DNA of 50,008 nt from Acidobacteria bacterium RIFCSPLOWO2_12_FULL_66_21 (GTDB taxonomy: Bacteria > Acidobacteriota > Vicinamibacteria > Vicinamibacterales > 2-12-FULL-66-21), in assembly GCA_001767455.1 (NCBI GenBank), contig MELC01000030.1:110475-160482 (forward strand). The letters run 5' to 3'. Positions 4,474-50,008 of this stretch are shown in pieces. The notes beneath the pieces were generated by a model. That model made no database searches. It saw nothing but the letters and a program-made list of their open reading frames with translations, and had not been told where the DNA came from. The translations under genes and the position numbers were made by a program. The number at the start of each line of letters is the position of its first letter. The first letter of the stretch is position 1.

Positions 4474-4636
4474 GGGTGCGAACGGCCGCCGTGCGGCCGA
4501 ATCGCCAGTCTACAGCACGCTCCGGAAGGGGGACAGGAGCGGCCGGAAAGCTGGCGCCGATCGGGGGAAATCGCCGAAAAGTCGGCATACATGAGGAAAT
4601 TCGCATCACGAAGGGCCTGTTTGCGGGATCTCTCCG

Positions 4637-4652
4637 TGGCAGCGCGGTTGCT
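4637..4652 (+). promoter_or_regulatory. Predicted sigma-54 (-24/-12) promoter of cytochrome module A
   Basis: The sequence TGGCAGCGCGGTTGCT matches TGGCAC-N5-TTGCA with the invariant GG and GC at the correct ten-base separation. Transcription should start near 4664, about 26 bases before the cytochrome start codon. Four further matches lie at 43.7-49.2 kb. Confidence 0.6.
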
Positions 4653-4689: not shown

Positions 4690-5727
4690 ATGCACCTCTT
4701 CTTGCTCGCCACGGCGCTGCTGCTGGCGCCACAGAATACGGCGCCTGCCGCGCAGGATGCCGAGACCTGTCTCGCGTGTCACTCGAATCCGCAACTGGTC
4801 ACGACCACCGGTGATGGAACCGCCACCAGGCTGCACGTCGACGGGGCCACCTTCGCCAAGTCCGTCCACGCGAAGCTGGCCTGCGCGGATTGCCATACAG
4901 GGATGTCGACCGTCCCACACGAGCCGCGCCCCTTCCGGACGCAGCGCGAGCTGACGCTCGCCTACGACGAGCAGTGCCGCCGCTGCCATTTCGCCAACTA
5001 CACGAAGACGCTCGACAGCGTGCATCAAGCGTCGGTGGCGCGGGGGGATCGCACCGCACCCGTGTGCGTCGATTGCCACGGCTCCCACGACATCCAGCGT
5101 CCGTCGGAGCCGCGCACGCGCATCTCTCAGACGTGCGCGCGCTGCCATCAAGGTGTCGCGACCGCCTACGTGAAAAGCGTACATGGGCGGGCGCTCACGA
5201 CAGAGGCGGCCACCGACGTCCCGGTGTGCACCGACTGCCACCAGACGCACGACATCGGCGGCCCGCACCAGCAGCAATGGGAGCTCCGCACGCCCGAACT
5301 CTGCGGCCGCTGCCATTCGAACGCCGCGCTGATGAAGAAATACGGGCTGTCGACGGCGGTCCTGAGTACTTATCTCGCCGACTTCCACGGGAAGACGGCG
5401 TCGCTCCGCGAAAACCAGGGGACGACGCCGACCGGCAAGGTCGTGGCGCGCTGCACCGATTGCCACGGCGTGCACGACATCCAGAAGGCGGACGACCCGG
5501 ATTCGCCGGTGATGAAGGCCAACCTGCAGAAGACCTGCCGCAAGTGTCACGAAGACGTCAACGCGAATTTTCCAGGGGCATGGCTGTCGCATTACGAGCC
5601 GAGCTGGAAGAAGGCGCCGATCGTCTACGGCGTGAAGGTCGCCTACAGCGTGCTCATCCCGTTCATGATTGGAGGCCTCGGCCTCCAGATCCTGCTGCAT
5701 CTCTGGCGGCTCATGGTGAATCGATGA
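4690..5727 (+). CDS. Nine-haem membrane-anchored cytochrome c (module A)
   Basis: 345 aa. An N-terminal hydrophobic segment (about 1-14) acts as a Sec signal or anchor. Nine CXXCH sites follow in order: CLACH, CADCH, CRRCH, CVDCH, CARCH, CTDCH, CGRCH, CTDCH, CRKCH. A single C-terminal transmembrane helix (about 318-338) ends the protein, placing the haems in the periplasm. The protein should carry electrons between the cytochrome b encoded next to it and periplasmic partners. It overlaps that gene by four bases (ATGA), so the two products are probably made in a fixed ratio. It has the same architecture as the eleven-haem protein at 41.6-43.0 kb, including the C-terminal anchor. A sigma-54-type promoter lies 38 bases upstream. 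The physiological acceptor is unknown. Confidence 0.9.
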   Translation: MHLFLLATALLLAPQNTAPAAQDAETCLACHSNPQLVTTTGDGTATRLHVDGATFAKSVHAKLACADCHTGMSTVPHEPRPFRTQRELTLAYDEQCRRCHFANYTKTLDSVHQASVARGDRTAPVCVDCHGSHDIQRPSEPRTRISQTCARCHQGVATAYVKSVHGRALTTEAATDVPVCTDCHQTHDIGGPHQQQWELRTPELCGRCHSNAALMKKYGLSTAVLSTYLADFHGKTASLRENQGTTPTGKVVARCTDCHGVHDIQKADDPDSPVMKANLQKTCRKCHEDVNANFPGAWLSHYEPSWKKAPIVYGVKVAYSVLIPFMIGGLGLQILLHLWRLMVNR

Positions 5728-6419
5728 AGGACAGCGTCGTCCGCTTCACGCCGATCCAGCGGATCGAGCATTCCACCGTCATGTCGCTCTTCGCGGTGCT
5801 CGCGCTCACCGGCCTGCCGCAGAAGTTCTACGACCACGGCTGGGCGCAGCGGCTCATGGGACTGCTTGGCGGCGTCGACACGGCGCGGTTCGTCCATCGC
5901 ACCGCCGGCGTGCTCTTCAGCCTCGTGGTCGTCGTGCACATCTCGCGGCTGGTGGTGCTGGTGGCGCAGGGAAGGACGTCGCTGGCGCTGGTGCCGACGC
6001 GCCAGGATTTCAGGGACGCGATCGTGACGCTGCGCTATTACCTGGGACTCTCCGATCACCAGGCGCGGTTCGACAAGTTCGACTACCGGCAGAAGTTCGA
6101 GTACTGGGGACTGGTGCTCGGCGCCGCGATCGTGGTCGGCACGGGGTTCATCCTGCTCTACCCGGCGACGCTGACGCGGTTCCTTCCGGGGGAGTTCGTG
6201 CCGGCCTCGCAGCTCGCGCACAGCAACGAGGGGTTGATGGCGTTCCTCGTTGTCATCGTCTGGCACATCTACAACGCGCACCTGAACCCGGACGTGTTCC
6301 CCTTCGACACCTCGATCTTCACCGGCCGCATCAGCCGGCACCGCCTGCGGCACGAGCATCCGCTGGAGTTCGAGCGGCTGGAGCGCAACGAGCGGAACAA
6401 GTCGAGCAAGATCGCGTAG
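5724..6419 (+). CDS. Di-haem cytochrome b, FdhI/b561-like (module A)
   Basis: 231 aa integral membrane protein. The start is the ATG overlapping the stop of the cytochrome c gene; the open frame runs much further upstream but only as a shadow of that gene. Four helices carry candidate haem b histidines in IEHSTVMSLF, FVHRTAGVLFS, VVVVHISRL, LAHSNEGLMAF and IVWHIYNAHLNP. The C-terminal signature NPDVFPFDTSIFTG followed by HEHPLEFERL is nearly repeated in the cytochrome b at 40.7-41.6 kb. With its partner it should form a b/c complex exchanging electrons with the quinone pool. The direction (quinol oxidation or quinone reduction) cannot be told. Confidence 0.87.
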   Translation: MKDSVVRFTPIQRIEHSTVMSLFAVLALTGLPQKFYDHGWAQRLMGLLGGVDTARFVHRTAGVLFSLVVVVHISRLVVLVAQGRTSLALVPTRQDFRDAIVTLRYYLGLSDHQARFDKFDYRQKFEYWGLVLGAAIVVGTGFILLYPATLTRFLPGEFVPASQLAHSNEGLMAFLVVIVWHIYNAHLNPDVFPFDTSIFTGRISRHRLRHEHPLEFERLERNERNKSSKIA

Positions 6420-39252: not shown

Positions 39253-40620
39253 TTACTCCATATCGTGGCAGAGATCGCAGTCCTGCTTGATGACCAGGCC
39301 ATCCTTGCTCTTGTGCCTGTCGTCGTGACAGCGGAAGCACCCGGGTGACGAGGTGTGGCCGATGTTGTTCGGGTACGTGCCCCAGGTGACGTTCATCTTC
39401 GGGAACACGTTGCGGCTGTAGGCGCGCTGCGCGGCCGCCACGGCGCGGTCCACCTCGCCACGCCGCGTGTTGTAATCACCCGTGCCCTTGTAGAAGCTCG
39501 TGAGCCGTGTCGCGATGTCCTGCTGGGCCGACACCTGGTCGGGGTAGTTCACCTTCAACGCCGCCACCGCCTCGCGCCGTACGAACGGCAGCTTCGGCAT
39601 CTCTCCGGTGGCAATCGCCGCGTCCACCGCGCGCTCGGGCGACGGATCGAACGCGTGGCTCGGACGGTTGTGGCAGTCCATGCAGTCCATGGTCCGCGGT
39701 TCGTTCTTCTTCAGCTGCTCCTCGGTCACGCCTTCCGCGTAGTACTCGCGTTTGGCGCCCGTCCGATGATCCGTCACCGATACGTACCCCATCATCTGGC
39801 GCTTGTCGTCGGTCGCGATGTAACGCACTTCGTTGTCGACGTTGTTCATGTGCCAGTGGATTCCCGTGGCGATGCCCAGCTTTTCGCTTCCGCCGCCGAC
39901 ATGCACCCGCATCGTGGTGATGCTCTCGGTCACCTTCTCGTCGTCGCCGTACTCGCGGTGGACGTTGACCTTGTCGCCGTGGAACTTCTCCGGCCAGTGG
40001 CACTGCTCGCAGACCTCGCGCGCCGGGCGCAGCGTGTGGACCGGCGAGGGGACTGGCCGCGCGTAGCTGTTGAGCAGCACGGCGACGACCTGCCGCGTTC
40101 CGTCGAGCTTCGACTTGACGAAAAACGGGGCGCCGGGCCCGATGTGGCACTGGACGCACGTCACGCGCGAGTGCGGCCCGTCCTGGAACGCCATGTACTC
40201 GGGCTCCATGACGGTGTGGCAGACCTCGCCGCAGAACGTCGTCGAGTCCATGAACTCGACGCCCTTGTACGCCGCAAGCGAGATGACCACGACGTTCACC
40301 AGCGTCAGGATGAACACGATGAACGCGCCGCGCCGGTGCGACGGCTTGTTCAAGTCGATGGCCGGCCAGTGCAGGTGCGACGTCAAGCCGCGCGCGATTC
40401 GCCGCCGCTCGATGAAGATCCCGATGGGGATGAGCAACAGCCCGAGGATGAAGACCGCCGGAATGACGAGGAAGAAGACGATCCCCATGTAGGGGTTCGT
40501 GTGCAGCCCCAGGAAATCGATGAAGAAAACGACGAAGAACAGGACCGCGCTGACGGTGACAATCACGCCGCCCGTGATGGAGACCGCATTGCGAACCAGC
40601 GCGCGGAGATTATCTGGCAT
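39253..40620 (-). CDS. Six-haem NapC/NirT-like inner-membrane cytochrome c
   Basis: 455 aa. Two N-terminal helices (about 13-35 and 44-66) are followed, after a loop, by a third (about 98-117) and a periplasmic multihaem domain. Haem sites: one CX3CH (CGEVCH, in a NapC/NrfH-like context EFMDSTTFCGEVCHTVMEPE) and five CXXCH (CVQCH, CEQCH, CMDCH, CFRCH, CDLCH). Proteins of this kind oxidise menaquinol at the membrane; Geobacter ImcH is a comparable example. It is the last gene of the module B group, 105 bases after the cytochrome b, and may be cotranscribed. The electron acceptor is unknown. Confidence 0.85.
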   Translation of the reverse strand: MPDNLRALVRNAVSITGGVIVTVSAVLFFVVFFIDFLGLHTNPYMGIVFFLVIPAVFILGLLLIPIGIFIERRRIARGLTSHLHWPAIDLNKPSHRRGAFIVFILTLVNVVVISLAAYKGVEFMDSTTFCGEVCHTVMEPEYMAFQDGPHSRVTCVQCHIGPGAPFFVKSKLDGTRQVVAVLLNSYARPVPSPVHTLRPAREVCEQCHWPEKFHGDKVNVHREYGDDEKVTESITTMRVHVGGGSEKLGIATGIHWHMNNVDNEVRYIATDDKRQMMGYVSVTDHRTGAKREYYAEGVTEEQLKKNEPRTMDCMDCHNRPSHAFDPSPERAVDAAIATGEMPKLPFVRREAVAALKVNYPDQVSAQQDIATRLTSFYKGTGDYNTRRGEVDRAVAAAQRAYSRNVFPKMNVTWGTYPNNIGHTSSPGCFRCHDDRHKSKDGLVIKQDCDLCHDME

Positions 40621-40725: not shown

Positions 40726-41610
40726 CTATCGGGTCAGGAATGCATACATTATCAGGACCACCAGCGTAAGCCCGACAATGACCGCGCTGGTCCCGACGAA
40801 CCGCCCCACGACGAGAGCGCGGTGGGACGGCGGACCTGCGTTGAGCCGGTCGAGCCCGCCCGTCCGGCGCAGCCGCTCGTGCTCGGCCGGGCGCTCGTGC
40901 CGCAGTTCGGCTTCCGGCAGGCTCCCCGTGAAAATCACCATGTCCATCGGGAACTTCTCCGGGCGGATGTGCCCGTTGAAGAAGTGGATGGTGAAGATGA
41001 ACCCGACCGCCAGCAGCGCTTCTTCGCCGTGCACCAGCAGGGCGATATTGAAGAGCCAGCCCGGCAGCACGCGCGCGAACTGCTCGGGGAACCATAACAT
41101 CAACCCCGAGCCGCCGATAATCGCCATCCCCCAGAAGACGGCCCAGTAGTCGAACTTCTCCCAGTAGGTGAACCGATCGAAGATCGGGCGCGGGCCGGCG
41201 CCGACGAACCACTTGAAATGCCCGAACAGATCCGCGATGTCGCGCGGCTGCGGCACCATCGAGGACGGGCCCCAGAAGATGGAGTAGTCCTTCTTCACTA
41301 TCACGCGGTGCAGCAGGCGCCCGACGTGCGTCACGAACACGCCTATCAGCGTGACGGCCAGGATCCGGTGTACCGTGCCGCCGAACTCGAAGCCCCCGAG
41401 CGCATGGGCCCACGCCTTCGCCCACGGCGCCTCGGAGAAGAGCAGCGGCAGGCCCGTCGCGGCCAGTCCAAGAAAGCTGCACATCATCAGGAAGTGCAGG
41501 TAGCGGTCGGCGCGATCGAAGCGCCTGACGTGGCGCACCTGCACCGCGGCTGCGGCAGGACGCGGCTGGACGTCAGCGGCCTCCGTCTCGCGTTCAGCGG
41601 TCTCGGCCAT
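40726..41610 (-). CDS. Di-haem cytochrome b, FdhI/b561-like (module B)
   Basis: 294 aa. The ATG at 41610 has GGGAGG at good spacing and overlaps the cytochrome c gene by 17 bases. Helices carry histidines in DRYLHFLMMCSF, GTVHRILAV, VTHVGRLLHR, LLVHGEEALL and TIHFFNGHIRP. The C-terminal signature EKFPMDMVIFTG followed by RHERPAEHERL is the counterpart of that in module A. An extra C-terminal helix (about 271-291) is not found in module A. It should pass electrons between quinones and the eleven-haem protein. Confidence 0.87.
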   Translation of the reverse strand: MAETAERETEAADVQPRPAAAAVQVRHVRRFDRADRYLHFLMMCSFLGLAATGLPLLFSEAPWAKAWAHALGGFEFGGTVHRILAVTLIGVFVTHVGRLLHRVIVKKDYSIFWGPSSMVPQPRDIADLFGHFKWFVGAGPRPIFDRFTYWEKFDYWAVFWGMAIIGGSGLMLWFPEQFARVLPGWLFNIALLVHGEEALLAVGFIFTIHFFNGHIRPEKFPMDMVIFTGSLPEAELRHERPAEHERLRRTGGLDRLNAGPPSHRALVVGRFVGTSAVIVGLTLVVLIMYAFLTR

Positions 41611-42973
41611 CGGTGCCCTCCCCCGAACGCGCTCCATGGACCGCGACCGGCTCGCCCGCACGCCGCCGGCGCGCGCGCCTCACGTGCAGCTCCTTCATGA
41701 ACCACATGGTCGTATGCAGACCAAAAAACCCGAAGACGCCGGCGAGCAGGATGGTCATGAACCGCGCCGTGAAGTAGAGGACCGGATTGCCGGCCCTGCG
41801 GTGCTTGTCGGCGTGCGGGTCGTACTTGACGAAATTCTCGCTCGCGTTCGGATGGCACTTGCCGCAGGTCGCGACGAGCCGGGCCTTCGAGATCGGCGAA
41901 CGCGGATCGCTCGCCGGCAGCATCTCGTGGGCGCCGTGACAGTCGGCGCACGACGCCACCGTCCTGAACCCCAGATTCGTCACCTGCCCGTGGAACGTGT
42001 CGCGGAACGTCGCGATCCGGTCGAGATGGCACGTGCCGCACTGGCCGATCACCGACAACTGCCAGCTCGCCGTCTCGGCGCGCTGGATGCCGTGGGCCGT
42101 GTGGCACGTCTGGCAGGTCGGCGCGCCGGTGTTGCCCTTCGCCAGGGCCATGCCGTGGGCGCCCGCGTTGAACTGGTTCGAGATCCCCTCGTGGCACCTG
42201 CCGCACGTGGCCGGCACGTGCATCTTCGAGACGTGGCTGTTCGGATCGTCCCTGCGCCGCACGTCGTGCGCGCTGTGGCAGTCGCTGCAGGTCGGCGCCA
42301 CCACCAGGCCGCTCTTCGAGAGCGCAAGGCCGTGAATGCTGTCGGCGAAGAGCTTCGTGACGTCGCTTGGAATGCCGCCTTTCCTGATCACATCCGCGTC
42401 CCCGTGGCACTTCGTGCACGTCGCGGCGATATTGAGGTGATAGGTGCGCGACTCCGGATCGCTCTTCGGCTTGATGTCGTGCATGCCGTGGCAATCCACG
42501 CACCGCGCCGCCTCGATCGACCCTTTCGCGCGCTCCCGAGCGTGCACGCCTTCCTTGTATTTCGCGACCGAATCGGGGTGACACGTCGAGCAGTCGACCT
42601 TGGCCAGCTTCTCGGGATGCGGGAACTCGATCCCTTTCGCCAGATCCTGATGGCAGTCCACGCAGGAGAGCGGACCGTGCACGGAGTGCTCGAACGCCTC
42701 CGGCTTGACGACGACAGGCCGGCCGTCCGCGCGCACCGCGGAACCGTCGCCGTGACAGGCGAGGCAGTCGGCATTCGACGGTGGAATGGGTTCCGTCTTC
42801 GCTCGTTCCGCAGGCTTGGGCGCGACAGAGGCGGGAGGAACGGCCGGGCGCGTCTTCGCAACTGGATGAGGAGCGGCAGCCGCGATGGCCGGTCCGGGAT
42901 GTGCTCGCACTGACAGGCTCAGTGCGAGCGCCCAGATGGCCACTCCGGTGCCGATGACTCCGCGCGTACTCAT
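41594..42973 (-). CDS. Eleven-haem membrane-anchored cytochrome c (module B)
   Basis: 459 aa. A signal or anchor helix (about 6-24) precedes an Ala/Pro-rich linker and eleven CXXCH sites: CLACH, CVDCH, CSTCH, CVDCH, CTKCH, CSDCH, CGRCH, CQTCH, CGTCH, CADCH, CGKCH. A C-terminal helix (about 402-424: YFTARFMTILLAGVFGFFGL) is followed by a basic cytoplasmic tail. The repeated spacing C-x2-CH-x-x-H-D-I/V is shared with module A's nine-haem protein. Electron carrier in the periplasm, anchored next to the cytochrome b of the following gene. Confidence 0.9.
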   Translation of the reverse strand: MSTRGVIGTGVAIWALALSLSVRAHPGPAIAAAAPHPVAKTRPAVPPASVAPKPAERAKTEPIPPSNADCLACHGDGSAVRADGRPVVVKPEAFEHSVHGPLSCVDCHQDLAKGIEFPHPEKLAKVDCSTCHPDSVAKYKEGVHARERAKGSIEAARCVDCHGMHDIKPKSDPESRTYHLNIAATCTKCHGDADVIRKGGIPSDVTKLFADSIHGLALSKSGLVVAPTCSDCHSAHDVRRRDDPNSHVSKMHVPATCGRCHEGISNQFNAGAHGMALAKGNTGAPTCQTCHTAHGIQRAETASWQLSVIGQCGTCHLDRIATFRDTFHGQVTNLGFRTVASCADCHGAHEMLPASDPRSPISKARLVATCGKCHPNASENFVKYDPHADKHRRAGNPVLYFTARFMTILLAGVFGFFGLHTTMWFMKELHVRRARRRRAGEPVAVHGARSGEGTDGRDR

Positions 42974-43031: not shown

Positions 43032-43373
43032 CTACTTCTTCTTCAGCGTCTGCAGGTAAGCCGTCAGCGCATCGATGTCTTCGGCCGAAAGCGGCTTCTT
43101 CATCATCGCTGGCTTCCGCTCCGCCTTCGTCTGGGCGGCCTTCGCGACCGGATCCGTCAGCCACGCCTTGATGTCCGCCGCCGTCAGCTTCGATCCCACT
43201 TCGTCGAGCGATCCCTTCGGATTGCCGACGCCGGCGATCGAATGACACATCTTGCAACCAGACGAAGCGAACAGCGCCTTCCCCTTGTCGACCTTCGCGT
43301 CAGCCGCGAAAGCCGGGCCGGCGAACACCATCAGTGCCGCCGCCCACACCACCACCGTGACAATGCGTTTCAT
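43032..43373 (-). CDS. Small secreted monohaem cytochrome c
   Basis: 113 aa. ATG at 43373 with a GGGAG-type ribosome site. A signal peptide ends near AFAAD (about residue 23). The haem site is CKMCH (40-44), within KGKALFASSGCKMCHSIAGV, and a Met ligand is likely in KPAMMKKPLS. Class I cytochrome c fold. It probably carries electrons to or from the multihaem protein encoded 58 bases downstream. Confidence 0.9.
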   Translation of the reverse strand: MKRIVTVVVWAAALMVFAGPAFAADAKVDKGKALFASSGCKMCHSIAGVGNPKGSLDEVGSKLTAADIKAWLTDPVAKAAQTKAERKPAMMKKPLSAEDIDALTAYLQTLKKK

Positions 43374-43401: not shown

Positions 43402-43668
43402 TCAATTGACGCCGAGCGGTTCGCGGATCGACTCGTCGGGCGCGACTGCAAAGAGCCGCGCGACGATCTCAGAAAGGTTCGCTCCGCCGGGACCCGCGAG
43501 CGCCGCCTCGAACCGGGCGGCGATCGCCTGCGTGACGGCCACGCTGATGGCGTCCACTTCCTCGCGATCCGATGGATTCAGCGATGCGGTCTTGCGGCGC
43601 AGGCGCTGCAGCTCGGTGCGGCAAACCTCCTCGAATCGATCGTGAAGAGCACGGCCGATGGGGCTCAT
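43402..43668 (-). CDS. Small protein resembling the C-terminal dimerisation domain of glutamyl-tRNA reductase
   Basis: 88 aa, all helical. The text VCRTELQRLRRKTASLNPSD followed by REEVDAISVAVTQAIAARFE resembles the HemA C-terminal domain (ELxRxLxKLxxLSxEExxAIExLTxxIVNKLL). The catalytic and NADPH domains are absent. It heads the cytochrome operon, 28 bases before the monohaem cytochrome, and a sigma-54-type promoter would start transcription about two bases before this ATG. A link to haem supply is attractive but is inference; the match is by eye and the region is short. Confidence 0.55.
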   Translation of the reverse strand: MSPIGRALHDRFEEVCRTELQRLRRKTASLNPSDREEVDAISVAVTQAIAARFEAALAGPGGANLSEIVARLFAVAPDESIREPLGVN

Positions 43669-43680
43669 GCCGAAGCTAGT

Positions 43681-43696
43681 GGCAAAGGAAGTGCCG
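43681..43696 (-). promoter_or_regulatory. Predicted sigma-54 promoter of the module B cytochrome operon
   Basis: On the minus strand CGGCACTTCCTTTGCC has GGCAC-N5-TTGC with exact spacing. The expected start near 43670 is two bases before the first ATG (43668), so the first gene would be almost leaderless. Confidence 0.6.
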
Positions 43697-43803
43697 GTCG
43701 GCAGAATTGCGATTTCAGGCGGAAAAACCGCTTGTTGACGTTTTGAACAGGTCCTCCGGGATGCCGATATCGCCGGTTTCCCGGCATGATTCGGACCGGA
43801 CCT

Positions 43804-43819
43804 CGGCACGTGCTTTGCG
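43804..43819 (+). promoter_or_regulatory. Predicted sigma-54 promoter of the 70-residue protein gene
   Basis: CGGCACGTGCTTTGCG has GGCAC-N5-TTGC with exact spacing. Transcription should start near 43830, leaving a 28-base leader with GGAGGG before the ATG. Confidence 0.6.
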
Positions 43820-43857
43820 ACCTCCGCCGGTGCTCGACGTAAACCCGGAGGGATCCC

Positions 43858-44070
43858 ATGACCACACAGCACACTCTGCGCCGCGAACCGTGGACGTGCA
43901 AATGGGGACGCTTCGGTGGCCCCATCGAGGCCACGATCCACGAGGCCCCGGGTTTCGTTTTCTGGACCTGCGCCCACCCGGAGAGACAGCCGGCCGGGCC
44001 GCTGAACCGCGGAGCGTGCGAACACTGTCCGGGATGGGAAGCGATGGAGAATGCGGCGGAGGGACGCTAG
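43858..44070 (+). CDS. Small four-cysteine protein of unknown function
   Basis: 70 aa, cytosolic. Strong GGAGGG ribosome site. Four cysteines (Cys14, Cys38, Cys54, Cys57) with aromatic residues around the first two (EPWTCKWGRFGGP, GFVFWTCAH) and CEHC at the end suggest a small metal-binding domain (zinc or iron). I do not recognise a named family. The upstream sigma-54-type promoter and the neighbouring cytochrome and hydrogenase genes suggest a part in the same programme. It is convergent with the 85-residue unknown. Confidence 0.7.
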   Translation: MTTQHTLRREPWTCKWGRFGGPIEATIHEAPGFVFWTCAHPERQPAGPLNRGACEHCPGWEAMENAAEGR

Positions 44071-44081
44071 GCGCGCACGGC

Positions 44082-44140
44082 GCGCCTGCGAGCCGGGGCC
44101 CCCAAGCGACCGAGCCGGGGTCCGGGGCAGAGCCCCGGTT
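44082..44140. repeat. Dispersed repeat with CCGGGGC-AGA-GCCCCGG hairpin
   Basis: This is the second copy of the repeat at 69-100. The stem (44122-44128 with 44132-44138) lies between two convergent genes and could end transcription in both directions. The last two bases overlap the stop of the minus-strand gene. Confidence 0.75.
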
Positions 44141-44396
44141 AGAAATGCGCGGAGCGATAGACAGCCCGCTTCCGGAATAGCCGGAAAGCGTCCCCGCGCT
44201 CCACTTGCTGGGCCAGGTAGCAGATGTCGGTGCAGTTGGGGGAGAAGTTGTACCCGAGCTGGTCTTCGCGGTCCGACACCTCCTCCCACTCTTCCTCGAG
44301 ACCGACGATGGCATTGGCGGCCGCCGCCATCTGATCGGCCGAGGCACCGGGGAACCTCTTCGCGAGCACCGCCAGCACTTTCTCGCGGTCGATCAT
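44139..44396 (-). CDS. Small protein of unknown function under a sigma-54-type promoter
   Basis: 85 aa. ATG at 44396 with GGAGG five bases before. The N-terminal half is helical (DREKVLAVLAKRFPGASADQ, MAAAANAIVGLEEEWEEV); the C-terminal half holds two cysteines (NCTDICYLAQQVERGDAF). I recognise no family. It lies downstream of the radical SAM gene on the same strand but has its own predicted promoter, so it is probably a separate unit. Confidence 0.65.
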   Translation of the reverse strand: MIDREKVLAVLAKRFPGASADQMAAAANAIVGLEEEWEEVSDREDQLGYNFSPNCTDICYLAQQVERGDAFRLFRKRAVYRSAHF

Positions 44397-44435
44397 TGCT
44401 CCTCCGTCAAACATAGGGCACGTGCACCCATCAGA

Positions 44436-44451
44436 GGCAATGGAGGTGCCA
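44436..44451 (-). promoter_or_regulatory. Predicted sigma-54 promoter of the 85-residue protein gene
   Basis: On the minus strand TGGCACCTCCATTGCC matches TGGCAC-N5-TTGCA in every conserved place except the last base. Transcription should start near 44425, giving a 29-base leader that contains GGAGG. Confidence 0.7.
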
Positions 44452-44515
44452 TGGGGCGCAGGGGCGGTCGGAGGCGGGCCGGAGGGGTTTTCTTGGGAAA
44501 AACGGCGACCGTGCG

Positions 44516-45769
44516 CTACGGGCGGAGGGACGCGCCGAATTCGTGAGGGGCGGCGTCGGGAATCCGGCGCGCGCGCGCGCGCAGCCGTGAGCCGAACGCG
44601 GGGCGGGCCGCCACACGCATGGCGCGGCGCCAGAGCTCATACCCGTAGAATCCGGCCGTGCGCGGCGCCAGAAAGGCCGCATCGTCGGGCGTCACGACCA
44701 GGCTGACCTCGATGTTCGGGGCCACGCCGATGGGGATGTGATGCCGCCGGCAGGCGTCGTACATGGCGGCCATGACCTTGCGCATGTCCTCGTAGTCAGG
44801 CGACGCCCAGTCCTCCATCTCGGAGCCGATGGTCGGCCGAAAGATGCAGACGGTGGGAAACGCCCCGATCGACGCGATCCGTTCGATCGCTTCGATCGTG
44901 TTCTCGACTGGCTCCAGACCCGCGATGAGCTCTCCCGACACCGCCCCCTTCCGAAGCCGCGAAGCGCAGTGCTCCATCGCCTGGAAGAACAGCGGCTGCC
45001 CCAGCGTGCGCGCCTTGCCCGGGCAGATTCGCGAGAACCAGTACGAATCGAGCAGCTCGACGCAGAACGAGAAGTGGTCGGCGCCGAGATCGATCAGGCG
45101 GTCGTACCGGGAGAAGTCGCGCTCGGGAGCGAGCTGCACGCCGACGAGCAGGCCGACCTCCTGCTTGACCGCGCGGACGAACGGCTCGGCGAACTCGAGG
45201 CCGTGGCCCCCCTGGAAGCCGCCGTTGAAGTGGACGAAGGTGATGCCCGACTGCTCTTTCGCGGCCCAGCAGGTTTCAACGACGTCCTCGACCGTCTTCT
45301 CCGCGATCTCCGCGCCGCCGACGTTCTGCCCCGTCGTGCAGAAACGGCAGTTCGTCGAGGTCTTCCAGAACTCGCAGACGGGATTGATGTAGATCCCGAG
45401 GTAGGTGCCCTGCAGCACGCCGATGCGCGACATCGGCACGTCGCGCGACGTCAGCCGGTCGTACCACGCGGGACGCTGCGGGACCCGGACGGGATAGCGT
45501 TCGCCGGACCGCTCGTCGACCATCGCGTATTCGCCGGGTCCTCCAGCCAGCACGTAGGGTGAGGTCCGCGCGAACCGCTCCGCCACCGGCGCGTTCATCC
45601 AGAGGTCCGGCTTCAATCGGGACGAGGTGGGGAGGATGAGTTCCAGGCCGGAGCCCAGGCCGGCGCGCGTGCGCGAGATGCCGCGGGCTCCCTCGAGCGA
45701 TACCTCCGGCGGGATGCGCACTCCCCGGCAGAAAAGATCGACCTCGAGCTCACACGGATTCAGCCGCAC
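44516..45769 (-). CDS. Radical SAM protein with CX8CX2C cluster motif, next to hydrogenase maturation genes
   Basis: 417 aa. The start is taken as GTG at 45769, since GGGAGG lies just before it (the longer TTG frame would begin inside that site). The cluster motif is VCEFWKTSTNCRFC: Cys132, Cys141, Cys144, spacing CX8CX2C instead of the usual CX3CX2C. The following TIM-barrel text (FVHFNGGFQGGHGLEFAEPF, ELIAGLEPVENTIEAIERI, IFRPTIGSEMEDW) supports the fold. I know no characterised enzyme that fits. It is the last gene of a minus-strand series with hypF, hypC and a formyltransferase, so work on a hydrogenase cofactor or subunit is likely but unproven. Confidence 0.8.
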   Translation of the reverse strand: MRLNPCELEVDLFCRGVRIPPEVSLEGARGISRTRAGLGSGLELILPTSSRLKPDLWMNAPVAERFARTSPYVLAGGPGEYAMVDERSGERYPVRVPQRPAWYDRLTSRDVPMSRIGVLQGTYLGIYINPVCEFWKTSTNCRFCTTGQNVGGAEIAEKTVEDVVETCWAAKEQSGITFVHFNGGFQGGHGLEFAEPFVRAVKQEVGLLVGVQLAPERDFSRYDRLIDLGADHFSFCVELLDSYWFSRICPGKARTLGQPLFFQAMEHCASRLRKGAVSGELIAGLEPVENTIEAIERIASIGAFPTVCIFRPTIGSEMEDWASPDYEDMRKVMAAMYDACRRHHIPIGVAPNIEVSLVVTPDDAAFLAPRTAGFYGYELWRRAMRVAARPAFGSRLRARARRIPDAAPHEFGASLRP

Positions 45770-45783
45770 GAAACCTCCCAAAA

Positions 45784-45812
45784 CCGGGGCTCGGCCCCGG
45801 ACCCCGGCGCGT
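45784..45812. repeat. Third copy of the CCGGGGC hairpin repeat (inverted)
   Basis: The stem CCGGGGC-TCG-GCCCCGG followed by ACCCCGGCGCG is the reverse-orientation copy of the repeats at 69-100 and 44109-44140. It lies in the 49-base gap between the formyltransferase and radical SAM genes and may weaken read-through. Confidence 0.7.
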
Positions 45813-45818
45813 CCAGCC

Positions 45819-46685
45819 TCACACGCCGACGAGCGGCTCGTCCGGCGTCAGGGTACCGTCCGGCTCGAGGGTCCACCGGCCGAGGGTCGAGATGTTGAGC
45901 GGCCGCTTCGGATCCTCAATGGCCCGCGACACGAGCTCCACCGTCCGCGTCAGCATCGGTCCCCAGGCCTCACGCAGCATCCATTCGCGTTGGGCCCACG
46001 CGGCCGCGCGCAGCACGTCGCCGGCATTGCGGTCGCGCGCCCACTCGGCCACCGGCGGCACGGGGAACGGCCAGGACCGGAGCATCACCGGACCGTTGTC
46101 CACCTGTTCGGTCACCATGTGCGTCGTCGCGCGCGTCTCGCACTCGCCGGCGAGCAGCGCATCCCGCACCGCGCTCAACCCGACGTATTTCGGGGCGCCG
46201 TCGCCGTCACGCACCGTCAGGTCGGCGTGATGGATGTTCAGCACGCGGCCGTCGAACGCGTCGAGGATGGGCGCCGTCAGGACGAGCAGGTAATCGTCGA
46301 GCAGGATCACGTCCGGGTTGAACGGCTTCAGCAGCTCCAGCGTGATCCGATCGTAATCCGGCCGGGCCTCGAGATCGCTCACGGCGGTGCCCCGGCTGAG
46401 GGAGTAGCGGCGAATCGAGTGGGGCAGGCACGGGACGCCCCTCCGCTCGACGCGGACCTCTTCCGCGAACGTGTCGCTCGAGGTGACGCAGCAGACCACT
46501 TCGTAGTCGGCCCCCCGATGCGGATCGCGGTTCAGCAGCTGGACCAGGCCGGGCGCGCGGTGCGAGCAGAGCACCGCGACCTTGACGGGGCGTCCGAGCT
46601 TCCGGCCCTTCGACTCCCTTCGGTCGCCCGGGACGGGGCCGCCATATGCCGGCCGGCCGGTAGTGGCGCGTGGGTCGCGTGTCAT
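45819..46685 (-). CDS. Formyltransferase-family protein in a hydrogenase maturation cluster (HypX N-domain / PurN-like)
   Basis: 288 aa. The ATG overlaps the hypC stop (ATGA). After a basic 33-residue extension the Rossmann-like formyltransferase fold begins at VKVAVLCSHRAPG. The three catalytic residues of glycinamide ribonucleotide formyltransferase are kept: Asn150 and His152 (RVLNIHHADLT) and Asp196 (THMVTEQVDNGPVM). In aerobic hydrogenase producers HypX uses formyl-tetrahydrofolate to make the CO ligand; its N-terminal half is of this fold, but the second, enoyl-CoA-hydratase-like half is absent here. The N-terminal extension coincides with a repeat-like sequence (CCCTTCGACTCCCTTCGGTC), so the true start could be further in. 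Confidence 0.75.
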   Translation of the reverse strand: MTRDPRATTGRPAYGGPVPGDRRESKGRKLGRPVKVAVLCSHRAPGLVQLLNRDPHRGADYEVVCCVTSSDTFAEEVRVERRGVPCLPHSIRRYSLSRGTAVSDLEARPDYDRITLELLKPFNPDVILLDDYLLVLTAPILDAFDGRVLNIHHADLTVRDGDGAPKYVGLSAVRDALLAGECETRATTHMVTEQVDNGPVMLRSWPFPVPPVAEWARDRNAGDVLRAAAWAQREWMLREAWGPMLTRTVELVSRAIEDPKRPLNISTLGRWTLEPDGTLTPDEPLVGV

Positions 46686-46969
46686 GGCTCTGATGCAGTT
46701 CCCGCTGTGATCGCCGCGGAAAGATCCTCGTCATCGCCGTCGCTGGCGGCGCGCAGCCACTCCTCGTACGACGCGAGTGTCTCGGCGATGTCGCGTTCAG
46801 GGATTCGTTGTATCGCGTAGCCGACGTGGTGCAGCACGTAGTCGCCCGGCGCGACCGGCTGCCCCACGAGTGCAAGCCGCACGATACGCCGCACGCCGAA
46901 AAAGTCAACTGTGGCGACGAGACCGTCCGGCGCCACGTCGATGATCCGTCCCGGCACGCCCGATGACAT
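46682..46969 (-). CDS. hypC: HypC/HupF-family hydrogenase maturation chaperone lacking Cys2
   Basis: 95 aa. The ATG at 46969 has GAGGAGA at ideal spacing, and the N-terminus reads MSSGVPGRIIDVAPDG. The body is a clear HypC OB-fold (VDFFGVRRIVRLALVGQPVA, GDYVLHHVGYAIQRIPE). In known HypC, HybG and HupF the protein starts MC, and Cys2 is needed for binding HypD and carrying the Fe(CN)2CO unit to the large subunit; here it is Ser-Ser. A longer in-frame start upstream would not place a Cys next to the GVPG loop. It lies 41 bases after hypF and overlaps the next gene. Confidence 0.88.
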   Translation of the reverse strand: MSSGVPGRIIDVAPDGLVATVDFFGVRRIVRLALVGQPVAPGDYVLHHVGYAIQRIPERDIAETLASYEEWLRAASDGDDEDLSAAITAGTASEP

Positions 46970-47010
46970 CCGGTCTCTCCTCGCGGCACCGCCGGTCGAC
47001 GGTGGCATCG

Positions 47011-49098
47011 TCAGCTCGCCCTCACGATCGCATCGGCGACGACCGCCTGGCCAAGGGCGATGCCGCCATCGCCGGGCGGCACCGTGGCATGCAGGAGCAT
47101 GGTGAACTCCGGCACGAGCTCGTGCACGATGCCTTCGACGAGCCGCGTGTGCTGGAAGCACCCCCCGCTCAGCGCGACGGGCAGACGGCCGTGAATGCAC
47201 GCGACGCCGCGGACGAGATCGGCGGTCGCCGCGGCCAGCGTGTTGTGGAACCGCGCGGACACGCGCGGGGGGGATTCTCCTCCGATCAGCTCGAACACGC
47301 CGTCGCGGACGGCGGGACGCAGGTCGACCTGCCACGGCTGGACGCTCCGGCAGATGCCGTAGCGGTAGCGCCCGCGCTCGTCGTCGGCCGCGGCCGCGTT
47401 CCACTCGAGCGCGAGCTGCGCTTCGTAGCTCGCCAGGTGCCGGCCGAGGCCGAGCGCCCCCATCGCATCGAAGTAGCGCCCCGCGGCGTGCGCGGGAGGC
47501 GCGTGATGCTCCGACGCGATCGATTCGCGCACGTCCGCGATGGCCTCGGCACTGACGTTCCGGAACACGGCAAGCGAGTCGAGCGGCGCGTCGCCCCCGA
47601 ACGCATCGTCCACCACCGCGAGCGCCGTGCGCCATGGCTGGCGGATGGCGAGCTCGCCCCCCGCGAGACGGATCGGCCTGAGCGTGGCCATGCGCTCGAA
47701 AGACGTGTAGCTGGCCACCAGCACTTCACCGCCCCAGTACGTGCCGTCCGTCCCGAGGCCGCCTCCGTCGTACGCGACGCCGATGACGGGCCCCTCGACG
47801 CCGTGCTCCGCCATGACGCTGGCGATATGGGCGTGGTGGTGCTGCACGCCGATGGTCGCGGCGGCCGCACGGGAGAGGGCGTAGCCCGTCGCCAGATACT
47901 CCGGATTCAGATCGTGCGCGACGATCTCCGGCTCGAATCCGAGGAACCGTTCCAGCCGGTCGATCGTTTCGCGATACGACGTGAACGTGTCGAGGTCGTC
48001 CAGGTTGCCCATGTGCGGGCCCAGGCAGGCGTCGGAGCCGCGCGCCAGGCAGAAGGCGTTGGCGACCACCGCGCCGCATGCGAGCACGGGACGCTCGACG
48101 GCGCGCTTGAGCGTCACGGGCCGCGGCGCATATCCGCGCGAGCGCCGCAGCACCACGGGCGCGCCGGCGACGACGCGCGCGATCGAGTCGTCGCAGCGCG
48201 TGACGATCTCGCGGTTGTGCAGGATGAGCACGTCGGCAATGCCGCCCAGCCGGGTGAGCGCTTCTTCGTTCGTGTACGCCATCGGCTCGTCGGAACGGTT
48301 GCCGGACGTCATCACGAGCGGACGGCCGACGCGGTCGAGCAGCAGATGATGCAGCGCGGAGTACGGGACGAAGAGGCCGAGCAGCGGATTGTGCGGAGCG
48401 ATGGCGACGGCGACGGGCGACGGCTCACGCCGGCGCGCTATCACCACGGGACGTTCCGGCGACAGGAGCAGCCGCTCTTCCTCGGGCCCGATGAACGCGA
48501 GCCGCTTCGCCTGCGCCACGTCCGACACCATCATCGCGAACGGCTTCTCGTCGTGGTGCTTGCGCGCGCGCAGCTCCTGCACGTTCGTCTCCGACGTGGC
48601 ATCGCAGGCCAGGTGGAACCCGCCGATGCCCTTCAGCGCGACAATGCCGCCTCTGAGCAGCGCGCGCGCGGCCTCCTCCACCGGATCGTCGGTTTCGATG
48701 CGCGTGCCATTCGGCGCGACGGCGAACAGCGACGGGCCGCACTGCGGGCACGCCGCAAGCGCGTGGAACCGGCGGCCGCCCGGCGTGTCGAATTCGCGCT
48801 GGCACTCGGCGCACATGCGGAACGCGGCCATCGTCGTCCGGGCGCGGTCGTAGGGGGCGGCGGTCGCAATCGTGAACCGCGGGCCGCACTGCGCACAGTT
48901 GGTGAAGCAGTAGTGGTAGCGGCGATTCGACGGATCCCGCAGCTCCGACAGGCACGTGGGACAGATCGGCAGGTCCGGTGGCATCGACCGGAGTCCAGGC
49001 GGGTCGGCCCGTTGCGCGCTCGCGAGCCGCGCCGGCGCCTGGGCCGGAAAGTGCGCGAGCCGCACGCCTCCCGGATGGTCGAAGTTGAAGATGCGCAT
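47011..49098 (-). CDS. hypF: HypF-like carbamoyltransferase lacking the acylphosphatase domain
   Basis: 695 aa from ATG 49098, where a sigma-54-type promoter 35 bases upstream supports the start. Zinc-finger pairs are at Cys46/Cys49/Cys68/Cys71 and Cys96/Cys99/Cys117/Cys120 (ICPTCLSELRDP, CFTNCAQCGPRFTI, MCAECQREF, ACPQCGPSL). The YrdC-like domain follows (about 138-330: GGIVALKGIGGFHLACDATS), then the Kae1/TobZ-like domain with VQHHHAHIASVMAEHG and GVAYDGGGLGTDGTYWGGE. The first 40 residues do not resemble the usual 90-residue acylphosphatase domain, and no QGVGFRP motif is seen in any frame upstream. HypF makes the cyanide precursor by moving a carbamoyl group to HypE. Confidence 0.9.
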   Translation of the reverse strand: MRIFNFDHPGGVRLAHFPAQAPARLASAQRADPPGLRSMPPDLPICPTCLSELRDPSNRRYHYCFTNCAQCGPRFTIATAAPYDRARTTMAAFRMCAECQREFDTPGGRRFHALAACPQCGPSLFAVAPNGTRIETDDPVEEAARALLRGGIVALKGIGGFHLACDATSETNVQELRARKHHDEKPFAMMVSDVAQAKRLAFIGPEEERLLLSPERPVVIARRREPSPVAVAIAPHNPLLGLFVPYSALHHLLLDRVGRPLVMTSGNRSDEPMAYTNEEALTRLGGIADVLILHNREIVTRCDDSIARVVAGAPVVLRRSRGYAPRPVTLKRAVERPVLACGAVVANAFCLARGSDACLGPHMGNLDDLDTFTSYRETIDRLERFLGFEPEIVAHDLNPEYLATGYALSRAAAATIGVQHHHAHIASVMAEHGVEGPVIGVAYDGGGLGTDGTYWGGEVLVASYTSFERMATLRPIRLAGGELAIRQPWRTALAVVDDAFGGDAPLDSLAVFRNVSAEAIADVRESIASEHHAPPAHAAGRYFDAMGALGLGRHLASYEAQLALEWNAAAADDERGRYRYGICRSVQPWQVDLRPAVRDGVFELIGGESPPRVSARFHNTLAAATADLVRGVACIHGRLPVALSGGCFQHTRLVEGIVHELVPEFTMLLHATVPPGDGGIALGQAVVADAIVRAS

Positions 49099-49132
49099 GC
49101 CGTCAGATTTCCAAAGGAACGCGGATGAAGAT

Positions 49133-49148
49133 GGCAAGGGCAATGCCA
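49133..49148 (-). promoter_or_regulatory. Predicted sigma-54 promoter of hypF
   Basis: On the minus strand TGGCATTGCCCTTGCC has GGCA and TTGC with the exact GG-N10-GC spacing. The expected start near 49122 leaves a 24-base leader before ATG 49098. Confidence 0.55.
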
Positions 49149-49289
49149 CCCCGCGGGGTGGTAAGTCCGTGCGCAAATCCTTGATTTGCGCGATTCCTGG
49201 CGTATTTCCGTCGGGTTTCCGGCAACGTGCGCAGCCATCCGGCACGCAATAGTCCGCGTCCGGAGGGGAATATCCCCCGGACCGCTCCG

Positions 49290-49841
49290 TCACACCGTCG
49301 TCCCCGCCGGCGTTCGCTTGTCGGACCCGCGCTGCCACCACGTCTCGGGAGTTCGCGGAACCAATCGCGCCGACGGCGCCGCGCCCTGCCGCTCGAGCTC
49401 GGCGACGACCAGGCCGATCGCAGGCGCTACCGCCTCGCGAAGGGCCGGTCCGAGTTGCACGCCGGTCGCTTCCCATTCGGGGACGACCCCGATCAGCAGC
49501 ACGTGCGACGGCCCCTCTCCCGCGCGTGAGACGCGGAGGAGCGCGGCGCGGATGCCCGGGTCGTGCGGGCACAGGAGCGGCTCGCTCGACTGCGCCACGA
49601 TCTCCCCGAGGTCGTAGGTGTGAATGTCGCCGGGCGTGCCCGCCTTCGTCAGCGTGTCGATGAGGATGACGACGTCGGCGCCAATCAGGTACGGCGCGAG
49701 ATCCAGGCCCGGGCGCCCCGCGTCGATGATCTGCACGTTTTCCGGCATGTCGTAGAACGCGTCGATGACGCGGACGACATACGGTCCAAAGCCATCGTCG
49801 CTCATCAACACGTTGCCGAGTCCGAGCACGCGGATGTTCAT
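49290..49841 (-). CDS. NiFe-hydrogenase maturation protease, HyaD/HybD family
   Basis: 183 aa. The ATG at 49841 begins the conserved glycine-rich N-terminus MNIRVLGLGNVLMSDDGFGP, where Asp16 takes the place of the nickel-binding Glu16 of HybD. The other ligands are expected in VQIIDAGRPGLDLAP (Asp) and LLCPHDPGIR (His). These proteases trim the C-terminus of the large subunit after nickel insertion. The ribosome-binding region is occupied by an 80-bp tandem repeat that reaches the start codon; no Shine-Dalgarno is visible. hypF lies 191 bases downstream. The hydrogenase large subunit it serves is not in the window. Confidence 0.88.
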   Translation of the reverse strand: MNIRVLGLGNVLMSDDGFGPYVVRVIDAFYDMPENVQIIDAGRPGLDLAPYLIGADVVILIDTLTKAGTPGDIHTYDLGEIVAQSSEPLLCPHDPGIRAALLRVSRAGEGPSHVLLIGVVPEWEATGVQLGPALREAVAPAIGLVVAELERQGAAPSARLVPRTPETWWQRGSDKRTPAGTTV

Positions 49842-50008
49842 TGTTTGACTGGCGGGGACCCCTGCACCCCGCCAAGCTCGTCGCTCGCGGGGGCCCCTCG
49901 CCCCGCTCCGCTCCTCGCGATTGTTTGACTGGCGGGGACCCCTGCACCCCGCCAAGCTCGTCGCTCGCGGGGGGCCCTCGCCCCGCTCCGCTCCTCGCGA
50001 TTGTTTGA
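49840..50008. repeat. 80-bp tandem repeat touching the protease start codon
   Basis: Units start at 49840, 49920 and 50000 (each ATTGTTTGACTGGCGGGGAC ...) and are almost identical; the third is cut by the window edge. The internal text GCTCGCGGGGGCCCCTCGCC and CCCGCTCCGCTCC recurs in inverted form at 32.9 kb. The first unit overlaps the first bases of the protease ATG. Confidence 0.92.

Follow-up and report, generated by a model that had tools for sequence, protein, structure and literature searches.

Genes of the locus

The window, that is, the whole stretch of 50,008 nucleotides analysed, corresponds to C30:110475-160482, C30 being the contig that carries it; positions without this prefix are those of the window. 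Genes were called from codon log-odds with no RBS model, a rough procedure that missed some small genes, including that of the four-cysteine protein described below, and that can place starts wrongly (the called EBP1 is probably about 18 codons too short). Two cytochrome modules lie in the window. Module A, on the plus strand, encodes a 345-aa multihaem cytochrome c (4690..5727; PF14522, PF09699) and a cytochrome b (5724..6419, with the start from the gene caller; PF01292 is matched on the longer frame 4890-6419, and the G043 counterpart is 63.5% identical). Module B is on the minus strand. The first gene of its operon (43402..43668) encodes an 88-aa protein resembling the dimerisation domain of glutamyl-tRNA reductase (PF00745, E 4.6e-7), and the module further includes a monohaem cytochrome c (43032..43373; PF00034), a 10-haem cytochrome c with 10 CxxCH motifs and relatives in many phyla (41594..42736; PF14522 on a longer frame), a cytochrome b561-like membrane protein (40726..41610; PF01292, under the curated cut-off) and a 5-haem NapC/NrfH-like cytochrome (39253..40620; PF03264, 5 CxxCH).

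Beside module B, a 70-aa four-cysteine protein is encoded on the plus strand (43858..44070); it matches no family, and the module B cluster of G055 encodes a weak homologue (31.6%). The minus strand carries the genes of an 85-residue protein, again with no family match (44139..44396), and of a 417-aa radical SAM protein that is a conserved neighbour of module B (44516..45769; NF045502 above cut-off). Then come, on the same strand, a formyltransferase resembling the HypX N-terminal part (45819..46685; PF00551; 57% to a gene of the G007 hyp operon), hypC (46682..46969; PF01455), hypF (47011..49098) and a HycI-type hydrogenase maturation protease (49290..49841; PF01750). HypF scores 620.2 with TIGR00143 (cut-off 466.1), the match beginning at model position 90, and by alignment it is without the N-terminal acylphosphatase region; PF00708 (acylphosphatase) was not found in it and is present in the HypF of G007. 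In the genome, no [NiFe] large subunit was found, PF00374 matching just a NuoD-like protein and an Ehr-like one that lacks the cysteine motifs, and no HypD, for which a gap in the 91-contig assembly may account. Given the missing large subunit and HypD and the shortened hypF, what this organism has of the hyp genes seems to be a truncated remnant.

Predicted sigma-54 sites

Five sigma-54-like sites are present: before module A (4637..4652, plus strand, TGGCAGCGCGGTTGCT), module B (43681..43696, minus, CGGCACTTCCTTTGCC), the four-cysteine protein (43804..43819, plus, CGGCACGTGCTTTGCG), the 85-residue gene (44436..44451, minus, TGGCACCTCCATTGCC) and hypF (49133..49148, minus, TGGCATTGCCCTTGCC). 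All five keep the strict GG-N10-GC core; the match to TGGCAC-N5-TTGCA reported in the original prediction is a near one, with 1 or 2 mismatches in each site. They lie 37 bp (4637), 39 bp (44436), 34 bp (49133) and just 12 bp (43681) from the starts of the genes, and 38 bp separate site 43804 from the ATG at 43858. Consensus matching alone does not rise above chance: allowing up to 2 mismatches, 8 matches are found in the window as compared with 9.28 expected in shuffles, the other three (8438, 33882, 48694) being inside called genes, and exact TGGCAC-N5-TTGC occurs 20 times genome-wide as compared with 17 for the reversed control, 5 of the 20 falling within 50 kb of C30. Evidence was therefore sought in weight-matrix scores, in the share of intergenic matches and in conservation.

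The matrix used is an approximate one and does not come from a published table. With it the five sites score 12.1-14.3, each among the top 18 matches of C30:1-240000; all 18 are intergenic, in a sequence of which 90% is called coding. At a score of at least 12, the island of about 103 kb contains 15 sites, every one intergenic, and the remaining ~937 kb contain 37, 24 of them intergenic. Contrary to the earlier impression, gained by eye, that no equally good match precedes the housekeeping genes, such matches do occur elsewhere. The genome encodes RpoN (PF04552, E 2.6e-65) and about 31 activator domains with strong PF00158 matches, and AAA+ activators are encoded on C30 itself.

A predicted palindromic enhancer accompanies the sites

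A second element, absent from the original prediction, is the palindromic enhancer TGCCG-N6-CGGCA (UAS), which often sits about 80-90 bp ahead of the -24 element. The UAS matrix was trained on 14 sites, all from other genomes and hand-picked out of 26, the 12 left out being weaker or off the common spacing. Applied to C30, it gives 18 matches of at least 12, of which 16 fall in the 10% of the sequence that is intergenic. Upstream of module A the UAS at 4572..4587 (CGCCGAAAAGTCGGCA; score 17.2) is 57 bp from the sigma-54 site. Between the divergent sites, that at 43771..43786 (CGCCGGTTTCCCGGCA; 13.6) is 82 bp from 43681 and 25 bp from 43804, and the one upstream of hypF (49209..49224, CGTCGGGTTTCCGGCA; 13.9) is 68 bp from the hypF site. 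For 44436 a weak UAS (44554..44569, CGTCGGGAATCCGGCG; 10.8) is found 110 bp away, within the 3' end of the radical SAM gene; its counterparts in relatives lie 81-103 bp upstream of the site. An enhancer at looping distance is the general arrangement, with just the UAS 25 bp away for 43804 and just the weak one for 44436, which is one of the 5 of 15 island sites (at least 12) having no UAS of at least 11. In 1.04 Mb of this genome 14 UAS-plus-site pairs were obtained, 11 of them in the island. Just outside the window, upstream of the HycI-type gene, there are a sigma-54 site (11.4) and two UAS (C30:160580, 160658, 160705).

Intergenic UAS of at least 14 number 39 (up to 8 of them training sites) in 462 kb of activator-bearing genomes, as compared with none in 138 kb of three genomes without the activator, and sigma-54 sites have a similar density in both sets (45 and 10). 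Helical phasing of the enhancer distances was considered as well. With all pairs, 0 of 2000 jittered sets were as strong (best period 11.4 bp); with unique distances p=0.064, so phasing carries no weight in the argument.

Conservation in related genomes

Of 17 module A orthologues, own locus included, 16 have both elements upstream (site of at least 11, UAS of at least 10), as compared with 1 of 17 on the reverse strand, and in 12 of the 16 the spacing is 78-81 bp; in G106 the UAS scores 15.2 and the best sigma-54 match merely 10.5. For module B, site and enhancer were found at 18 of 30 loci, G007 having a site in the same place. No site of at least 12 was found at the other 12, two of which (G040 and G104) have sequence for 344 and 208 bp upstream only; one of the 12, G053, has the activator, a full upstream stretch and both elements at its module A. 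All five tested copies of the 88-aa first gene are preceded by both elements. Since module B loci of other genomes supplied the 14 training sites, their UAS matches are not independent evidence; the tests on module A, the hydrogenase operons and the 85-residue gene are independent of that training. The 85-residue gene has a site before 14 of 15 relatives' copies, accompanied by a UAS of at least 12 in 10 of the 15. Control genes gave sites of at least 12 in 0/10, 2/12, 0/83, 1/49, 0/2 and 0/11 cases.

The automated upstream test had 0 to 2 usable loci for the hypF, hycI, malic-PTA, Usp, 159-residue and four-cysteine genes (0 for the last), so that support for hypF rests on single readings. Among six relatives' hypF operons, both elements precede those of G007, G021 and G106, that of G037 has the UAS only, and those of G109 and G054 have neither. 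Of eight hydrogenase operons looked at, four carry both (G021, G037, G106, G052), those of G043 and G109 a site without UAS, that of G007 a weak UAS (12.4) without site, and that of G054 neither. As to the proposal that hydrogenase maturation belongs to the regulon, what the hypF site precedes in this organism is the remnant described above; hydrogenase itself has the two elements in the four relatives just named.

An MtrAB-type pair also lies in the island (C30:171131-174362), consisting of a PF11854 porin (E 9.7e-90) adjoining a decahaem cytochrome with 10 CxxCH, and has a sigma-54 site and two UAS upstream. This wiring is partly conserved, with a site in 7 of 15 mtrA cases and a UAS as well in 1.

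The candidate activator

The likeliest activator is an AAA+/Fis-type protein without N-terminal sensor domain, C30:177186-178139, or its 70% identical paralogue C30:203102-204133. Pfam gives AAA+, lid and HTH domains in both, and no GAF match in either; the orthologues of G055 and G059 are 335 aa long. Four conserved cysteines spaced C-x6-C-x-C-x6-C are present in all 30 activators scanned (28 by pattern, 2 by reading), and a NifU-like gene adjoins the activator in 26 of the 30. Sigma-54 sites precede 4 of 46 activator genes, paralogues included, and 10 of 26 NifU-like genes (3 with UAS).

Strong single matches to the activator occur in 33 of 162 genomes, 18 of which were examined for wiring, the other 15 having no ortholog-grade module A or B locus scanned. 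Of the genomes examined, 18 of the 23 that have the wiring also have the activator, as compared with 0 of the 9 that lack the wiring (Fisher p=7e-5, a hand tally uncorrected for phylogeny; G104, left out because of its 208 bp of upstream sequence, would bring p to 3e-5). It was not found in five examined genomes with wiring: G039 (77% complete), G046 (86%), G051 (90%), G050 (92%) and G058 (98%). The family is not sharply bounded: outside the examined set at least G022, G156 and G158 have split matches of 52-69% identity, which may be further members.

Alternative explanations

Chance occurrence of a short GC-rich motif would agree with the consensus counts, both in the window and genome-wide. 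We consider it very improbable given the intergenic bias of the good matches, their pairing at a preferred spacing with an enhancer that was cross-validated, and their conservation before orthologues and rarity before control genes; conservation counts against chance in the case of the two modules and the 85-residue gene, and it does so less completely in that of hypF (both elements in 3 of 6 relatives). Terminators of the upstream genes, the least likely of the readings considered, would equally be GC-rich inverted repeats between genes, and some palindromes do lie past an upstream stop codon. However, no T-run follows the palindromes in the examples read, that at 43771-43786 sits between divergent promoters, in five relatives the palindrome is within the 3' part of the radical SAM gene, and neither the preferred spacing to the sigma-54 site nor the lack of intergenic palindromes of at least 14 in activator-lacking genomes would be expected of terminators.

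The palindrome might instead be bound by the CRP/FNR-like regulator encoded at C30:174726-175442. In this genome its gene belongs to the same cluster, G044 and G055 have it near module B, and the half-sites are laid out 5-N6-5, as in CRP sites. We regard this as improbable: orthologues (E<1e-79) occur in 12 of 18 genomes having the module B site and in 6 of 12 lacking it, which shows no association (p=0.46, hand tally), the complete genomes G043 and G059 have palindrome and activator with best CRP/FNR-like matches of just 3e-25 and 5e-14, and a sigma-54 promoter requires an enhancer-binding protein regardless. Somewhat less unlikely is that the promoters are real and served by different activators, with no single regulon. 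The many activator domains of the genome, the two close paralogues of the candidate, the island sites short of a UAS and a second palindrome (TCAGGCCTGA, at C30:193664 and C30:204507) speak for it; a single 16-bp palindrome upstream of both modules, of the hyp operons and of the hydrogenase operons in relatives speaks against it. The paralogues and the other strong activator domains also make the choice of activator provisional.

Proposed regulon and its meaning

Sites, palindrome, their pairing, their conservation and the genes downstream are all read directly from the DNA, and at the level of sequence the regulon they point to is well supported. We consider it very likely that all five sites are RpoN (sigma-54) promoters and belong to a single enhancer-driven regulon, which continues past the window on C30 (about 115-212 kb). 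The single RpoN programme originally put forward gains from the counterpart sites before orthologues of module A, module B, the 85-residue gene and hypF, and from the common palindrome. An NtrC-family activator, for which the candidate above is proposed, would bind TGCCG-N6-CGGCA, loop to the waiting sigma-54 polymerase and open it with ATP. Both multihaem b/c cytochrome modules would be turned on, probably with the MtrA/MtrB-type outer-membrane conduit, and in relatives retaining the hydrogenase a Hyb-like uptake hydrogenase and the hyp genes would be switched on too. The simplest purpose would be to pass electrons, H2-derived ones included, to an acceptor outside the cell under oxygen scarcity; the four cysteines and the NifU-like neighbour suggest low oxygen, redox or iron-sulphur status as the signal. 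A more tentative possibility, somewhat doubtful as yet, is that the activator is self-sensing, NifA-like and nif-independent, with C-x6-C-x-C-x6-C holding an Fe-S or metal centre loaded by the NifU-like partner, and that cluster or oxygen status gates H2 uptake and extracellular electron transfer in Acidobacteriota.

The Acidobacteriota group concerned, to judge by matching contigs the order Vicinamibacterales, consists mostly of uncultured soil and water bacteria, and to our knowledge control of anaerobic and metal-linked respiration in the phylum is largely uncharted. The pair of shared switches would amount to a type of control not recognised before, which probably serves life with little oxygen. 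From the analysis come a DNA element, its target genes and a candidate activator, the prediction that H2 oxidation is turned on jointly with outward electron transfer, and, in site plus enhancer, a sequence handle for finding further members in metagenomes. Of 80 loci of the 10-haem protein, three were too short to scan; 14 of the other 77 have site and enhancer, acidobacterial by title save one apparently mislabelled MAG. As the protein occurs in many phyla, these acidobacterial copies also represent a case of regulatory rewiring.

Comparison with known systems

HoxA and FhlA place hydrogenase and hyp genes under sigma-54 control. The arrangement described here resembles theirs in having sigma-54 promoters on hydrogenase and hyp operons, and differs in the phylum, in the activator type and in being shared with multihaem cytochrome modules. 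PspF is likewise a stand-alone AAA+ plus HTH protein without N-terminal sensor domain, and its neighbour is PspA; unlike it, the candidates score below the PspF cut-offs and have the cysteine motif and the NifU-like neighbour in place of PspA. In Geobacter an activator of a bc complex exists, on which no claim here rests; on BccR/cbcBA nothing relevant was found among the open-access papers listed.

With NifA of alpha- and beta-proteobacteria, as presented in the accessible part of PMC10590331, the candidates share AAA+ plus HTH, and NifA 9qq6 is the best PDB sequence match of paralogue C30:203102-204133. Unlike NifA, they score 332.5 and 345.7 (TIGR01817 cut-off 528.85), no N-terminal GAF domain was found in them, and the enhancer is TGCCG-N6-CGGCA instead of TGT-N10-ACA (PMC10590331). 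NifA is marked by four cysteines at the AAA+ end and linker (PMC10590331); the four conserved ones of the candidates are spaced C-x6-C-x-C-x6-C, a spacing that differs from NifA. The genome has no match to PF00148 (nitrogenase).

The RpoN regulon of Geobacter sulfurreducens, in the part of PMC2725144 available, includes cytochromes of extracellular electron transfer, a sigma-54 control like that proposed here, in another phylum and over other cytochromes; hydrogenase and hyp genes are not among the members described there. In Proteobacteria, hydrogenase subunits and Hyp factors are under sigma-54 according to the available part of PMC12316311. Taken singly, the parts are therefore not without precedent. 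Among the open-access papers that our search listed, none describes multihaem cytochromes or hydrogenase of Acidobacteriota as members of a sigma-54 regulon. Finally, the porin beside a decahaem cytochrome is the arrangement of the MtrAB/PioAB conduits, and unlike these the pair lies in the island of the predicted regulon, with a sigma-54 site and two enhancers upstream.

Sigma-54-Type Sites and a Putative Enhancer

Five sigma-54-type promoters had been predicted, lying before module A (4637–4652), module B (43681–43696, minus strand), the gene for a four-cysteine protein (43804–43819), an 85-residue gene (44436–44451, minus strand) and hypF (49133–49148, minus strand); modules A and B are sets of multihaem cytochrome c and cytochrome b genes. 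All five sites were found at these positions, each with one or two mismatches to TGGCAC-N5-TTGCA. As eight matches of such quality are observed in the window versus 9.28 in shuffles, the sigma-54 motif by itself is no proof. The remaining three matches of equal quality (8438, 33882, and 48694) lie within called genes. We scored 240 kb of the window's contig (C30:1–240000), 90% of which is called coding, with an approximate sigma-54 weight matrix. The best 18 matches are all intergenic, in agreement with the predicted location of the sites upstream of genes and not inside them, and include the five sites (scores 12.1–14.3). A scan of 1.04 Mb of the genome gave 15 matches of at least 12, all intergenic, in an island of about 103 kb (C30:110–212 kb), and 37 in about 937 kb outside it, 24 of them intergenic. 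Genome-wide, exact TGGCAC-N5-TTGC occurs 20 times, five of these in C30:154911–204491, and the reversed pattern 17 times. The module B site ends 12 bp before the ATG (the stretch 43668–43696), as it also does in G007, which belongs to the same family; provided that this start is correct, the transcript would be nearly leaderless.

In the 200 bp preceding the module B sites a palindrome, TGCCG-N6-CGGCA, recurs; at 11 of 26 sites it lies 89–91 bp away. The matrix for this putative enhancer (UAS) was trained on 14 of the 26 sites, none from the window's genome, and yields 18 matches of at least 12 on C30:1–240000, of which 16 are intergenic. UAS copies lie in the window at 4572–4587 (score 17.2), at 43771–43786 between two divergent sites (13.6) and at 49209–49224 (13.9), and a weak one at 44554–44569 (10.8). 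Spacing between UAS and site is 78–81 bp at module A in 12 of 16 orthologues, which are outside the training set.

Another palindrome, TCAGGCCTGA, was noticed beyond the window, in an AATT context at C30:193664 and C30:204507. These are its only exact copies in 1.04 Mb; both are intergenic and adjoin sigma-54 sites, and the palindrome is possibly a site of the paralogue (C30:203102) of the candidate activator. Repeats with GGGGGACAGGCAC lie at about C30:202370–202490, upstream of a sigma-54 site (C30:202590) immediately downstream of which no gene is called.

Past the window, the island encodes an MFS transporter, a molybdopterin oxidoreductase accompanied by Fer4 and Rieske proteins, and a multihaem cytochrome together with an MtrB/PioB porin. 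It also carries genes for a CRP/FNR-like regulator, two stand-alone activators, a PAS kinase, a response regulator of NtrC type and two universal stress proteins, besides hemerythrin-like, radical SAM and NifU-like genes. The names feoA/B, hemN, ferrochelatase and protoporphyrinogen oxidase, also given to island genes, come from reading translations, not from family matches.

Conservation of the Sites

When 162 genomes of the order Vicinamibacterales were searched for the 10-haem gene of module B, 30 loci were obtained, our own included. In the 1.5 kb upstream, the operon strand carries a site of at least 12 at 18 loci and the opposite strand at two; the upstream stretch is cut off in two of the 12 site-less loci. 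In G007 the module B site occupies the same position (15.6). Of the 17 module A orthologues (E < 1e-120, own copy counted), 16 are preceded by both a site of at least 11 and the UAS. Three weaker relatives (in G072, G073, and G082) have neither element, just 103 bp being searchable in G073. Sites were also found before 14 of 15 loci of the 85-residue gene and 5 of 5 of the 88-residue first gene of module B; control genes gave 0/10, 2/12, 0/83, 1/49, 0/2, and 0/11.

Relatives of the 10-haem protein occur on contigs titled Deltaproteobacteria, NC10, Rokubacteria, Burkholderiales, Bacteroidetes and others. Loci with 500 bp or more of upstream sequence number 77, several of them duplicates of loci in the Vicinamibacterales counts; sites occur on the operon strand at 21 and on the opposite strand at two. 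The 14 with both site and enhancer are acidobacterial by title, except for one apparently mislabelled MAG. This is L173, titled Bifidobacterium breve, a title that is probably wrong as site and enhancer accompany the 10-haem gene there. Judged from sequence, there is good support for one conserved sigma-54 and enhancer regulon, predicted to unite the multihaem cytochrome modules with hyp genes and, in some relatives, with hydrogenase.

Hydrogenase Genes in Relatives and in the Window's Genome

Site and UAS stand directly ahead of the hydrogenase operons of four relatives (G021, G037, G106, and G052), that of G021 running small subunit, Fer4 protein, NrfD-like protein, large subunit. The operons of G043 and G109 have the site without the UAS; in G043 a module A copy, itself preceded by both elements, comes after the operon. 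For the G007 operon the UAS is weak (12.4) and no sigma-54 match reaches 11.5; that of G054 has neither element. The hydrogenase operon of these two genomes looks different and lies near another activator gene, 44–48% identical to C30:203102 (G007:C27 136407–137399, L257, and G054:C139 20074–21054, L258, in contig coordinates); it may be under its own activator.

The original prediction also tied hydrogenase maturation into the regulon. The hypF promoter and enhancer are indeed kept, but the cluster (45819–49841) is apparently a remnant. The window retains hypF, hypC, a formyltransferase and a HycI-type protease. In G007, a site of 13.9 lies about 26 bp ahead of a hypF with an acylphosphatase domain; the operon also contains hypA, hypC, hypD and genes for a HypB/CobW-family protein, a HypE-like protein with an AIRS domain, an enoyl-CoA hydratase and the formyltransferase. 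Compared with G007, the window's hypF is without the acylphosphatase domain, and hypD and the hypE-like gene are missing from between hypC and the formyltransferase gene. HypD was searched for throughout the genome and not found, nor was a [NiFe] hydrogenase large subunit, the search for which returned just a NuoD-like and an Ehr-like protein, the latter with no nickel-binding cysteine motifs read. A full-length large subunit is present in 8 of 14 relatives searched. An assembly gap could explain the absence of hydrogenase genes elsewhere in the genome; the local loss of hypD and the hypE-like gene is internal to a single contig. A near-perfect direct repeat (ATTGTTTGACTGGCGGGGACCCC...) lies in the stretch 49842–50008, immediately upstream of the protease gene.

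A Candidate Activator

Both rpoN and a nearby AAA+ activator were looked for. The genome has rpoN. Its strong activator domains number about 31, of which three are on C30. The candidate is an AAA+/Fis-type protein (C30:177186–178139) with a 70% identical paralogue (C30:203102–204133). Of 162 genomes, 33 contain a strong single match to it (E at most 2e-33); the family boundary is not sharp, G022, G156, and G158 being among others with split matches at 52–69% identity. In a hand tally of the genomes in which a locus of module A or B was scanned, the candidate occurs in 18 of the 23 that have the wiring and in none of the 9 that lack it (Fisher p = 7e-5, uncorrected for phylogeny). Wiring without the candidate is seen in G039, G046, G050, G051, and G058, of which G058 is 98% complete. 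Between genes, palindromes of at least 14 number 39 in 462 kb of genomes that have the candidate, up to eight being training sites, and none in 138 kb of three genomes that lack it; the two sets hold 45 and 10 sigma-54 sites. A CRP-like regulator, considered as the palindrome's binder, shows no comparable association with the wiring. The AAA+/Fis-type protein is the probable activator; we infer its signal and the regulon's physiology.

All 30 scanned activators carry C-x6-C-x-C-x6-C between the AAA+ and HTH domains, and for 26 of them a NifU-like gene lies no more than about 1.5 kb away; in the window's genome this gene adjoins the paralogue. Of five activators in the sampled contigs of this genome, only the candidate and its paralogue have the motif. 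Identity with NifA was ruled out by cut-off, domains and target genes. NifA of alpha- and beta-proteobacteria is described as having four cysteines in this part of the protein, proposed as metal-cluster ligands (PMC10590331).
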